From assembly GCA_030065985.1 (NCBI GenBank), contig JASJCM010000019.1, positions 1-45,627 on the forward strand: a stretch of DNA of 45,627 nt. The letters are read 5' to 3'. This document shows, in pieces, positions 3,906-35,185 of this stretch. Each line of letters opens with the position of its first letter. The first letter of the stretch is position 1. The stretch comes from Woeseiaceae bacterium. GTDB lineage: Bacteria > Pseudomonadota > Gammaproteobacteria > Steroidobacterales > Woeseiaceae. The translations under genes were made by a program, and so were the position numbers. The notes below the pieces were generated by a model. The model saw only the letters and a program-made list of their open reading frames with translations. It made no database searches and was not told the origin of the DNA.

Positions 3906-5243
3906 ATGACTGAATCACGACGCGAGGGCAGCCTCGAGGCCCCGACGCGCCATCCACTGGACTGGCGCTCCGACGATTTCTACGACGAGAAGTCGCTGTT
4001 CGACGAGCTCGAACGCGTCTTCGACATATGCCACGGCTGTCGCCGCTGCTTCAATCTGTGTCATTCCTTCCCGACCCTGTTCGACCTCGTCGACGAGTCC
4101 GACACGATGGAAGTCGACGGCGTTGCCAAGGACGACTACTGGCAGGTCGTCGACCACTGTTACCTGTGCGACATGTGCTACATGACCAAGTGTCCGTACG
4201 TGCCGCCCCACGAGTGGAACGTCGATTTCCCGCACCTGATGCTGCGCGCCAAAGCCGCGCGGTTCCGTGAGCAGGGCGCCTCGAAGCGCGATCGCATCCT
4301 GAGCGCCACCGATACGGTCGGCAAGCTGGCCGGCATCCCCGTGGTCGTCAACGCCGTGAACGCGGTCAACAGCAGCAAGAGCGGTCGCAAGCTGCTCGAG
4401 TCTACGCTCGGCGTGCATCGCGACGCACCGGTGCCGAAGTACCATTCGAAGACGGCGCGCAAACGCCTGTCGAAGCGTAATGGCCTTGCAGCCAGCAACG
4501 CGACACCGGGCGCGGCAACGACCGGCAAGGTGGCGCTGTTCACAACCTGCTACTGCAATCGCAATCATCCGACCGTCAATGAAGACCTGGTTGCCGTGTT
4601 CGAACACAACGGCATCGCCGTGACGCTGGCGTCGAAGGAGGTCTGCTGCGGCATGCCGAAACTCGAGCTGGGCGACCTCGAGTCAGTGCAGAAAGCGAAG
4701 GAACAGAACATCCCGGCGCTCGTCAAACTCGTTGACGAGGGATGGGACATTGTGACGCCTATCCCGTCGTGCACGTTGATGTTCAAGCAGGAACTGCCGC
4801 TGATGTTTCCGGACGACGCTGACGTCATCAAGGTACGCGATGCCATGTTCGATCCGTTCGAGTACCTGATGCAGCGGCACAAGGACGGACTGCTGAAGAC
4901 GGAGTTCGAGAAACCGCTCGGCAAAGTAACTTACCAGGTGCCGTGCCACCTGCGCGTGCAGAACATTGGTCTGAAGACCCGCGATGCGCTACAGCTCGTA
5001 CCTGACACGACAGTCGAGGTCATCGAACGGTGCTCCGGCCACGATGGCACTTACGCTGTGAAGAAAGAGTTTCACGACGTGTCGAAGAAGATCGCGCGTC
5101 CTGTCGTCAACAGGCTCAAGAAGGCGGAGGCCGATCACTTCACGAGTGACTGCCCGATGGCCGCCGAGCAAATTGTGCAGGATGTCGACGACCACGAAGC
5201 CAACAACCCGATGGGACTGCTACGCACGGCATACGGAATATGA
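3906..5243 (+). CDS. Heterodisulfide-reductase/GlpC-like iron-sulfur protein
   Basis: 445 residues. Two N-terminal [4Fe-4S] ferredoxin motifs are visible: CHGCRRCFNLC (about 43-53) and CYLCDMCYMTKCP (about 88-100). Two cysteine-rich CCG-type domains follow. The first runs from TTCYCN to KEVCCGMP plus PSC; the second has QVPCH, then ERCSGHDG in place of canonical CCG, then DCPMA. This is the architecture of GlpC/HdrD electron-transfer subunits, but no catalytic flavoprotein subunit is adjacent. Gene order (rubrerythrin, this gene, DUF3501) suggests it passes electrons to, or is maintained with, the rubrerythrin. It ends in an ATGA overlap with the DUF3501 gene, implying translational coupling. 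Confidence 0.85.
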   Translation: MTESRREGSLEAPTRHPLDWRSDDFYDEKSLFDELERVFDICHGCRRCFNLCHSFPTLFDLVDESDTMEVDGVAKDDYWQVVDHCYLCDMCYMTKCPYVPPHEWNVDFPHLMLRAKAARFREQGASKRDRILSATDTVGKLAGIPVVVNAVNAVNSSKSGRKLLESTLGVHRDAPVPKYHSKTARKRLSKRNGLAASNATPGAATTGKVALFTTCYCNRNHPTVNEDLVAVFEHNGIAVTLASKEVCCGMPKLELGDLESVQKAKEQNIPALVKLVDEGWDIVTPIPSCTLMFKQELPLMFPDDADVIKVRDAMFDPFEYLMQRHKDGLLKTEFEKPLGKVTYQVPCHLRVQNIGLKTRDALQLVPDTTVEVIERCSGHDGTYAVKKEFHDVSKKIARPVVNRLKKAEADHFTSDCPMAAEQIVQDVDDHEANNPMGLLRTAYGI

Positions 5244-34119: not shown

Positions 34120-34196
34120 CGGGGCATGGCGCAGTCTGGTAGCGCAACTGCTTTGGGAGCAGTGGGTCGGCGGTTCGAATCCGTCTGCCCCGACCA
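34120..34196 (+). tRNA. tRNA-Pro(UGG)
   Basis: 77 nt with encoded CCA. Acceptor arms CGGGGCA and TGCCCCG pair fully; the anticodon stem ACTGC/GCAGT encloses TTTGGGA with anticodon TGG at 34154-34156; the T-loop is TTCGAAT. It is 27 nt before the split tRNA-Arg gene. Confidence 0.96.
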
Positions 34197-34258
34197 GCCA
34201 GATTCCGGTTAGACTTGAATTGTGCGCCCGTAGCTCAGCTGGATAGAGCATCGGCCTT

Positions 34259-34905
34259 TAAGTGAGGAGCCTGTGCCGGGAAACAGAACCGGTACAGTGG
34301 ACCGCACTGTAACGGGGAAACCTTAGCAGGTAATGCTGATGGCAATCCCGTGGAAACCTGTGGACATCCGACGTATGTCGTGGTGTAGGGTGAGGTGATG
34401 GCCTCGCATCACACCAAGGACAAGGGTGACCTGGGAGTCCTGAAGGCTCAGGTAGATTTATTCGAGCAAGGATTCACAATACTTGTACCACTGACCGAAC
34501 ACAGTCCGTTCGATCTGGTGGCTTACAGGGACGGTGAATTCCGCAGGGTGCAGGTAAAGTACCGGGCACTGGACCGGTTCGGCAAAGTCGACGCGAAGTT
34601 TTCGACCAGCTGGGCGGACAGACACGGTACGCACGCGTCGCCGGTCGACAAGGATGAAGTAGACCTCTACTGCATCTATTGTTCGGATACCGATGAGTGC
34701 TACTATCTGCGCCCCGCCGATTTTGGCTCGAACGTTTCACTGAGGGTAAGGACTCCAAGAAACGGGCAGCTGAAGGGAGTTCACTTTGCTGCCGAGTTTC
34801 GCAGGGCTCCGTAGAGACTATACGTGCGGCGCCTGAGATGGCGAAGAGATAGTCCAGACCACAAACCCGGCATGGGCCGGGGCCGCGAAAGCGGTAGTTG
34901 GTAAG
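34259..34905 (+). ncRNA. Group I self-splicing intron in the tRNA-Arg anticodon loop
   Basis: 647 nt. P1: exon CCTT (34255-34258) with GAGG (34264-34267), giving the required U-G pair at the 5' splice site. P2: 34271-34279 with 34289-34297, 9 bp. P3: CCGCAC (34302-34307) with GTGCGG (34824-34829). P4: ACGGG (34312-34316) with CCCGT (34347-34351). P5: TTAGC/GCTGA (34323-34327, 34335-34339). P7: GACTAT (34816-34821) with ATAGTC (34849-34854). P8: CGCC/GGCG. P9: CCCGGC/GCCGGG (34866-34871, 34876-34881), then a GAAA-capped hairpin (34883-34894). The last base is G (34905). The S element AAGAGATAGTCC is nearly canonical. The endonuclease gene occupies the P6 side, between Q and R. Subgroup IC3 is likely but inferred. 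Confidence 0.92.
34398..34814 (+). CDS. Intron-encoded PD-(D/E)XK homing endonuclease (I-Ssp6803I-like)
   Basis: 138 residues, encoded wholly inside the group I intron. ATG 34398 has AGGG 7 nt upstream; a GTG at 34395 is also possible. The start GDLGVLKAQVDLFEQGF..L.PLTEHSPFDLVA and the catalytic pattern Asp39 ... Gln52-x-Lys54 (RRVQVKYR) fit the PD-(D/E)XK group whose type member I-Ssp6803I is encoded in a cyanobacterial tRNA-fMet intron and also has Gln in the third catalytic position. It would cut intronless tRNA-Arg genes and so spread the intron. The stop codon TAG (34812-34814) is just before the P7 strand at 34816. The frame appears intact. Confidence 0.87.
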   Translation: MASHHTKDKGDLGVLKAQVDLFEQGFTILVPLTEHSPFDLVAYRDGEFRRVQVKYRALDRFGKVDAKFSTSWADRHGTHASPVDKDEVDLYCIYCSDTDECYYLRPADFGSNVSLRVRTPRNGQLKGVHFAAEFRRAP

Positions 34906-34928
34906 CTAAGCCGGCGGTCGCAGGTTCG

Positions 34929-35050
34929 AATCCTGCCGGGCGCGCCAGTTTGTAAGACCGGCAGGTTGAGAACCGAGGTTCGCTCCGAGGAGCGCGCAGC
35001 GCGACGACAAGCGGACCGCGAAGCGGTCGCTAATCCTGCCGGGCGCGCCA
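34929..35050 (+). repeat. Direct repeat of the tRNA-Arg 3' end (19 bp) with hairpin-rich spacer
   Basis: The last 19 bp of the tRNA-Arg gene (34929-34947, AATCCTGCCGGGCGCGCCA) recur exactly at 35032-35050. Similarity extends upstream: GCGGTCGC occurs before both copies (34914-34921 and 35023-35030), with the T-loop part lost in the second. The 84-bp spacer holds short palindromes, CGCTCC-GA-GGAGCG, CGCGC-A-GCGCG and GACCGC-GAA-GCGGTC. The pattern recalls the rtT repeats after E. coli tyrT, which also begin with 19 bp of tRNA 3' end. Confidence 0.75.
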
Positions 35051-35108
35051 TTTCCTAGTGCAGGGAATGCGCAGGCGGCGTGAGCCGCGTTAAAATGTGA
35101 ATTACCGT

Positions 35109-35185
35109 GGTGGGCGTAGCTCAGTTGGTAGAGCCCCGGGTTGTGATCCCGGTCGTCGTGGGTTCGAGTCCCATCGTCCACCCCA
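35109..35185 (+). tRNA. tRNA-His(GUG)
   Basis: 77 nt including the extra 5' G (35109) characteristic of tRNA-His and encoded CCA. Stem CCGGG/CCCGG encloses TTGTGAT, anticodon GTG at 35143-35145. Nearly identical to gammaproteobacterial tRNA-His. A TAAAAT at 35091-35096 could be a local -10. Confidence 0.96.

Follow-up and report, generated by a model that had tools for sequence, protein, structure and literature searches.

A candidate mobile group I intron with a predicted homing endonuclease gene in the anticodon of a Woeseiaceae tRNA-Arg(UCU)

The tRNA-Arg(UCU) gene of a Woeseiaceae bacterium is interrupted by 647 nucleotides between anticodon bases 34 and 35, and it is very likely that the interruption is a mobile group I intron with a homing endonuclease (HE), capable of both self-splicing and homing at this site. 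The tRNA exons, the ribozyme core, the enzyme family, the empty sites of relatives, and copies at this site with a decayed ORF or none were all observed. In the mechanism that we propose, self-splicing started by guanosine would cut the 647 nt out of the precursor tRNA, and the spliced product would be a functional tRNA that reads AGA. The open reading frame (ORF) in the P6 loop would encode a PD-(D/E)XK endonuclease of the I-Ssp6803I type, which, judging from its genomic position, may cut intronless tRNA-Arg(UCU) genes near the anticodon; repair of the cut gene would then copy the intron together with its ORF into it.

The split tRNA gene and its ribozyme core

The window (the whole 45,627-nt stretch of DNA that was analysed) corresponds to a single contig, G000:C72, from a bin of 2.77 Mb with 84% completeness. 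When introns were allowed, ARAGORN called a tRNA-Arg(tct) with a 647-nt intron at 34224-34947, with the insertion between anticodon bases 34 and 35 where an earlier note on this DNA had placed it; without the intron option, no call for the split gene was made in the window. The joined exons form a 77-nt tRNA-Arg(UCU), and all 77 bases match an intact, intronless copy on contig C5 of the same bin. The comparison with an intronless gene bore out the statement of the earlier note that the two exons rebuild a perfect tRNA. As a separate observation, a 22-base stretch at 34929-34950 (the last 19 bases of the tRNA-Arg and three more) recurs with 95% agreement at 35032-35053, i.e., 103 nt downstream. 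Since C5 was seen by eye to have this repeat too, it is independent of the intron, and it is possibly the scar of an integrated element. The features of the locus are as follows; cells and pairs were counted over 51 aligned loci.

34120-34196: tRNA-Pro, flank of the split tRNA-Arg(UCU)
34224..34258, + strand: exon 1 of tRNA-Arg(UCU), last base U34 (ARAGORN with introns; equals bases 1-35 of the intact tRNA at G000:C5)
34255..34269, + strand: P1, exon CCUU with intron GAGG (34264-34267) or, shifted, CUU with GAG (34267-34269)
34259..34905, + strand: predicted group I intron, 647 nt, last base G (G34905) (ARAGORN, core alignment and covariance model R1)
34271..34297, + strand: P2 hairpin, 9 pairs (444/458 cells paired; double changes in 9/9 pairs)
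34302..34307, + strand: P3 5' strand, partner 34824-34829 (306/306 cells paired; double changes in 5/6 pairs)
34312..34351, + strand: P4 (34312-34317/34346-34351) around P5 (305/306 cells paired; double changes in 2/6 pairs)
34352..34361, + strand: P6 and P6a 5' strands, partner 34801-34810 (P6, 153/153 cells paired; P6a, 238/254, double changes in 5/5 pairs)
34395..34814, + strand: predicted homing endonuclease ORF, PDDEXK_5, in the P6 loop (PF11645)
34801..34814, + strand: 3' end of the ORF, overlapping the P6a/P6 3' strands and J6/7
34816..34820, + strand: P7 5' strand, partner 34850-34854 (254/255 cells paired; double changes in 2/5 pairs)
34824..34843, + strand: P3 3' strand and P8 hairpin (34830-34843) (pair counts)
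34850..34902, + strand: P7 3' strand, P9 stem and GAAA-capped hairpin 34883-34894 (pair counts)
34906..34947, + strand: exon 2 of tRNA-Arg(UCU), C35 to CCA (ARAGORN; match to the C5 tRNA)
35110-35185: tRNA-His, the other flank of the split tRNA-Arg(UCU)

For the core alignment, 60 sequences were picked from 85 (the window and L002-L085), of which 51 loci remained after five were excluded by hand (contig ends, missing exon parts), L012, L027 and L062 were skipped by the parser, and the long outlier L056 was set aside. In these loci, 94-100% of the cells were paired in P2, P3, P4, P6a, P7, P8 and P9.2, and for each of the seven helices the observed pairing was reached by 0 of 500 shuffles, a figure that is not a probability because the 51 loci are related. 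P9.2 had 202/204 cells paired and double changes in 4/4 pairs; pairing amounted to 57% of cells in distal P5 and to 48% in P9.1 in the register chosen, and it is to be noted that P6 and P8 also pair well when slid (95% and 93%, respectively). The U-G pair at the 5' splice site, pointed out in the earlier note, was seen in both registers of P1, where 34258 faces either 34264 or 34267. The two registers had 182/194 and 151/153 cells paired, one of them, when shifted, pairs nearly as well (97%), and, as there were zero double changes, P1 cannot be tested by covariation. When the same loci were folded by RNAalifold with the ORF left out, the hairpins of P2, P3, P4, P5, P6, P6a, P8 and P9 were drawn unprompted; P7 is not drawable alongside P3 by this program, which placed a false pairing there. 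By the pair counts, the group I core of P3, P4, P6, P7 and P8 with its P3/P7 pseudoknot is indeed present. The 647-nt insert is, as read from its sequence and that of its relatives, a group I intron, in which P1 to P9 are present along with the terminal G that had been claimed. From its anatomy and resemblance, the intron may belong to subgroup IC3.

The covariance search that the earlier note had put forward gave a divided answer. Rfam Intron_gpI (RF00028; cut-off of 50 bits) found no match in the window, even at an E value of 10, and none in five near relatives at the gathering score; it did recognize, at 72.7 bits, the intron of locus L185, which has no ORF and interrupts tRNA-Arg(UCU) at the position seen in the window. 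At a looser threshold, the whole length of the model was matched by the ORF-less relative L105 at 24.7 bits (E 2.8e-4), which is under the cut-off, and the relative L108 had no match. The miss on the window copy is probably due to the 0.42-kb ORF that fills its P6 loop. The possibility that the miss disproves the intron was ruled out by the matches of L105 and L185 and by the score of the window with a second model, R1. This model covers the 3' core and was derived, with the window excluded, from 10 relatives that are decayed or have no ORF and that include members of the same genus; it matched the window at 34808-34945 with 163.3 bits. Since intact tRNAs reach up to 39 bits with R1, its threshold was set at 50 bits, and the idea of counting all the R1 matches (113 of 120, in Pseudomonadota genomes) as introns was rejected. 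At least 50 bits was reached in 10 of the 120 genomes, the window's own included. ARAGORN called nine R1 loci as Arg(cct) (three), Ser(tga) (three), Leu(taa), Phe(aaa) and Ser(gct) (one each), the last of which, L185, is by sequence a tRNA-Arg(UCU) split at the window's site. Four of the nine passed Intron_gpI, namely L185, L180 (67.7 bits), L182 (62.4 bits) and L183 (62.2 bits); their hosts are two tRNA-Arg(CCU), one tRNA-Leu(UAA) and one tRNA-Arg(UCU). In L182, the tRNA-Leu(UAA) of another Pseudomonadota genome, the intron position given by ARAGORN is the same as in the window.

The endonuclease gene

The PD-(D/E)XK gene reported in the insert was recovered by the profile search, in which the ORF scored 128.8 bits with PF11645 (PDDEXK_5) against a cut-off of 26.1; no NCBIfam model matched the ORF at its own cut-off. 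The ORF is 139 amino acids long from the GTG at 34395 and 138 from the ATG at 34398, and the latter start is the more probable one, as 138 amino acids is the length of all 24 closest relatives among the matches listed. I-Ssp6803I (2ost) was the best match among solved sequences (E 0.0017) and also the nearest to the predicted fold (Foldseek E 1.5e-8, TM 0.70), which was taken from the one good AlphaFold model of five, the other four being at 40-47 pLDDT. We take I-Ssp6803I to belong to PF11645, and D, Q and K to be its catalytic residues. The D...QxK of the window aligns with the D...QVK of 2ost, and Asp39, Gln52 and Lys54 (ATG numbering), singled out in the earlier note, proved invariant in 57 of 57 intron-borne ORFs (61 chosen sequences minus L022, L035, L041 and L042). 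The ORF product is thus predicted to be a PDDEXK_5 homing endonuclease of the I-Ssp6803I type.

The 3' end of the ORF also forms part of the ribozyme: its terminal bases are the 3' strand of P6 and J6/7, and the adjoining P6a covaries. All 57 intron-borne ORFs close with CCG and the stop codon TAG, and where a valine precedes them, it is coded GTT in 46 of 47. Many free-standing and phage enzymes likewise have a hydrophobic residue and a proline near the C-terminus, in other codons, so the C-terminal residues may be older than the overlap with the RNA.

Distribution, empty sites and competing readings

The protein search counted 1357 relatives, of which the best 120 were listed, and a pattern-based scan, with each species represented by one genome, found 93, of which 80 were kept. 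Together with four viral loci, these 80 genome loci gave 48 calls of tRNA-Arg(tct), among them L059, where the tRNA is intact and the HE comes after it, 11 one-base-shifted calls and 9 other calls; in 16 loci, no tRNA with an intron was called. The 11 shifted calls were made by ARAGORN as tRNA-Ser(gct). That they represent a different tRNA was rejected, as they measure 73-77 nt without the intron and have no long variable arm; they are read as tRNA-Arg(UCU), because a one-base shift of the splice site explains them. This exposes a gap in annotation, in which the default ARAGORN run misses the gene and the one-base splice shift yields a tRNA-Ser(GCU). Among the carriers are Gammaproteobacteria, Bacillota, Bacteroidota, Rhodothermota, Ignavibacteriota and Chloroflexota; no relative was found on plasmids at E 1e-5. 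Within the class, the core pattern occurred at 17 places in 16 of 369 genomes, and the 16 places that were parsed consisted of four with a full ORF (window included), one with a fragment and 11 without an HE match. In a set of 60 genomes (own included), the intron core was found in 11, an HE match in eight and a full-length HE in five. Such a mixture, with sites empty, full, decayed or devoid of the ORF, is consistent with a homing cycle.

Several individual copies deserve mention. Genome G305 has the ORF-less tRNA-Arg(UCU) intron twice, on contigs C1 and C2 (L137, L143). A copy of gammaproteobacterial type is filed under a Halobacteria archaeon bin (L037), probably on a mis-binned contig. Two Ectothiorhodospiraceae bins (L022, L035) have the intron and HE with parts of the tRNA exons missing, as judged by eye, from either an assembly error or a broken gene.

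Within the genus, the intron core was present in 8 of 37 genomes and an intronless tRNA-Arg(UCU) in 16 of 37; genome G000, that of the window, is in both sets, and 14 genomes are in neither. A first pattern for the intronless gene, which found it in 4 of 60 genomes, was dropped as too strict. The looser patterns also catch tRNA-Arg(CCU) and others, hence only the rows with TTCTAA were counted, by eye. This distribution bears on the reading, which we consider improbable but worth weighing, that the intron splices as proposed and is immobile, being inherited with its host, with the HE having some other role or none. The absence of the ORF from many copies, including the 11 class places just mentioned, and an enzyme tree that mostly groups by phylum would agree with such inheritance. 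However, the intron is patchy within the genus by the patterns used, intron-bearing and intronless genes even meeting in G000, and the active-site residues of the enzyme are kept, which argues for the mobile intron.

The presence of an intact tRNA-Arg(UCU) on C5 raises the alternative that the window holds a decayed tRNA pseudogene, i.e., that an inserted nuclease gene broke the tRNA and the C5 copy serves the cell; the failure of Intron_gpI on the window could be counted in its favour as well. The gene order of C5 is that of the window (the end of tRNA-Pro is followed by Arg, His, Lys and a TonB receptor), and the larger ORFs of the two contigs correspond in the same order at 75-92% protein identity. 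Because of this shared order and identity, C5 most likely represents the orthologous locus of a near relative that was binned together with the window; origin by a large duplication is less preferred. At up to two mismatches, a second tRNA-Arg(UCU) was absent from 9 of 11 intron-bearing genomes, G000 and G044 having an intronless copy, and at up to three mismatches it was absent from eight of nine further intron-bearing genomes, the isolates Wenzhouxiangella limi and Longimonas halophila among the eight. If the patterns and assemblies miss nothing, splicing must work where the intron-bearing gene is the only tRNA-Arg(UCU). A pseudogene is also at odds with helices kept by paired changes, an open ORF with an invariant active site, exons identical to an intact tRNA, and the same layout at dozens of loci; considering that C5 looks like the locus of a co-binned relative, we regard this alternative as very improbable.

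Two genomes with a second copy have additional features. In G044 (L122, L123), a 50-base piece resembling tRNA-Pro precedes the intronless copy. The complete genome of Neobacillus sp. SuZ13 (L049/G426) has a tRNA-Arg(UCU) with an ORF-less intron, the HE downstream of it, and an intronless gene as follows.

G426 C1:5739193-5739233: intronless tRNA-Arg(UCU) of Neobacillus sp. SuZ13

With an intronless second copy, splicing need not be essential in G000, G044 or SuZ13, and the HE has not converted that copy; these exceptions weigh against the proposed mechanism, although the C5 copy in G000 may come from a co-binned relative. Finally, an archaeal-type tRNA intron, which would be removed by a splicing endonuclease protein, has the anticodon loop as its usual place (see also the available text of PMC4033280), but hardly any credence can be given to it at a site with a group I core, P3/P7 and a terminal G.

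Addresses of the enzyme family and comparison with known systems

The HE was also found outside the intron. In six Bacillota loci, the HE match starts 93-211 nt downstream of a tRNA-Arg(UCU) with a 286-292-nt intron, and there is no HE match inside these introns; in one of the six, L080, the HE frame is cut short. The HE adjoins an intact tRNA-Arg(UCU) at L041, L042, L052 and L059; the tRNA of L042 is a manual reading of what ARAGORN calls Pyl. The L041 enzyme groups with that of L024 (support 100/81) inside the clade of intron-borne enzymes from Gammaproteobacteria, and its gene ends in GTT-CCT-TAG; its HE has therefore probably left an intron. At L059 (1618-2217, Planctomycetota), the intact tRNA and the HE gene are followed, by eye, by repeated tRNA 3' halves, as if an HE cassette had regenerated the tRNA on insertion.

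In phages, the nearest tRNA upstream of the HE was an intact tRNA-Arg(UCU) in 20 of the 20 loci counted, Synechococcus phage Sf-FR1 and Acinetobacter phage Herod among them, at a distance of 25-68 nt except in one locus, where it was 239 nt. The downstream neighbour was of nine kinds or absent, and Arg(UCU) makes up 20 of the 96 tRNAs at these loci. The 20 loci represent few independent events, because about 12 remain as distinct sequences at 95%, and a single clade holds most of those included in the tree. The count leaves out L162, L164, L167 and L084 (distant, or with another or no tRNA adjoining) and L163, where the HE lies inside a split tRNA; the more distant L084, L162 and L167 are without the upstream tRNA-Arg(UCU) pattern. 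Of 22 phage records, H1-H3 were examined, and H3 (the same as L167) is without the pattern; the viral scan with L082 gave two loci. In L163 (the same as L082), at about 3920-4520, the HE and an intact tRNA-Arg(UCU) seemingly lie within another split tRNA, the exon-like ends of which pair, by eye, as acceptor and anticodon stems.

A tree of 86 enzymes, unrooted and with many weak forks, has 12 changes of address, and most sequences are grouped by phylum. By position, one HE family with a constant neighbour, tRNA-Arg(UCU), and a changing place looks like stages of 'collaborative homing'. A bolder and rather doubtful reading is that the family is defined by its target tRNA-Arg(UCU) and not by the intron, so that the phage enzymes would cut the genes of hosts or rival phages and intron-bearing bacteria would be immune. 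If true, the intron would be both parasite and shield at tRNA-Arg(UCU), and a single target would suffice to display how, step by step, a free-standing nuclease joins an intron to become a mobile element.

The novelty that the earlier note implied for an endonuclease-bearing intron in a gammaproteobacterial tRNA-Arg(UCU) proved smaller. The available text of PMC4853749 describes putative group I introns in the tRNA-Arg-TCT of Beggiatoaceae (Candidatus Thiomargarita nelsonii and Maribeggiatoa BOGUAY), which, as known here by description, resemble the window in tRNA and in bacterial class. The interrupted Thiomargarita gene (bases 79335-79658) has 324 bases in total, too short for an ORF of the window type, and no endonuclease is mentioned for it in that text. 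Novelty is limited, then, by the putative tRNA-Arg(TCT) introns already in print and by the endonuclease-bearing copies in dozens of genomes of several phyla. The open-access literature, as far as its available text goes, yielded neither an endonuclease-bearing tRNA-Arg(UCU) intron nor a phage PDDEXK_5 gene tied to tRNA-Arg(UCU). In the portions available, tRNAscan-SE 2.0 mentions fMet and Ile2 tRNAs as having group I introns (PMC8450103), a cyanobacterial survey lists introns in tRNA-Arg, Gly and Lys with UCU unmentioned (PMC5733544), and a 2014 review gives cyanobacteria and alpha- and beta-proteobacteria as carriers, with most such introns at position 37/38 (PMC4033280). The tRNA-Arg(CCU) and tRNA-Leu(UAA) introns of Pseudomonadota that R1 found (L180, L182, L183) are in other tRNAs, and no HE match was obtained at these loci by tblastn.

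Like the window intron, the tRNA-fMet intron of Synechocystis PCC 6803 is a group I intron in a bacterial tRNA gene, and the fold of its PD-(D/E)XK endonuclease is the same. However, its host tRNA differs, the two enzymes share 20-22% identity in structural alignments, and its ORF lies in P1, overlapping P1/P2 by 61 nt (available text of PMC3073962), whereas that of the window lies in P6. From this difference in placement, it would seem that members of the PD-(D/E)XK class invaded tRNA introns at more than one position. In layout, the window intron is like the T4 td intron with I-TevI, the P6-loop ORF of which has a 3' end that is part of P6a and P7, an overlap of ORF and core that was given the name 'core creep' (same source); the td intron differs in its protein-coding host gene and its GIY-YIG enzyme.

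In the collaborative homing of phages, the endonuclease gene lies beside, not inside, an ORF-less intron (PMC2988022 and PMC10448857, available text), and how such arrangements arise is stated there to be not clear (PMC10448857). The six Bacillota loci share this layout by position, but on bacterial chromosomes and at a tRNA gene; at the window locus, the HE is inside the intron. Unlike the phage systems, the present family has in-intron and free-standing forms, and at one kind of tRNA it offers the intact target, the free enzyme, the adjacent and in-intron genes and the decayed ORF, stages that occur in named isolates and phages besides metagenomes. It thus addresses the origin of the joint mobile element of HE and intron. 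One HE family with one tRNA neighbour and several addresses, so far a positional finding, may be the more interesting result, and the phage HEs beside intact tRNA-Arg(UCU) genes make the origin of such mobile introns testable.
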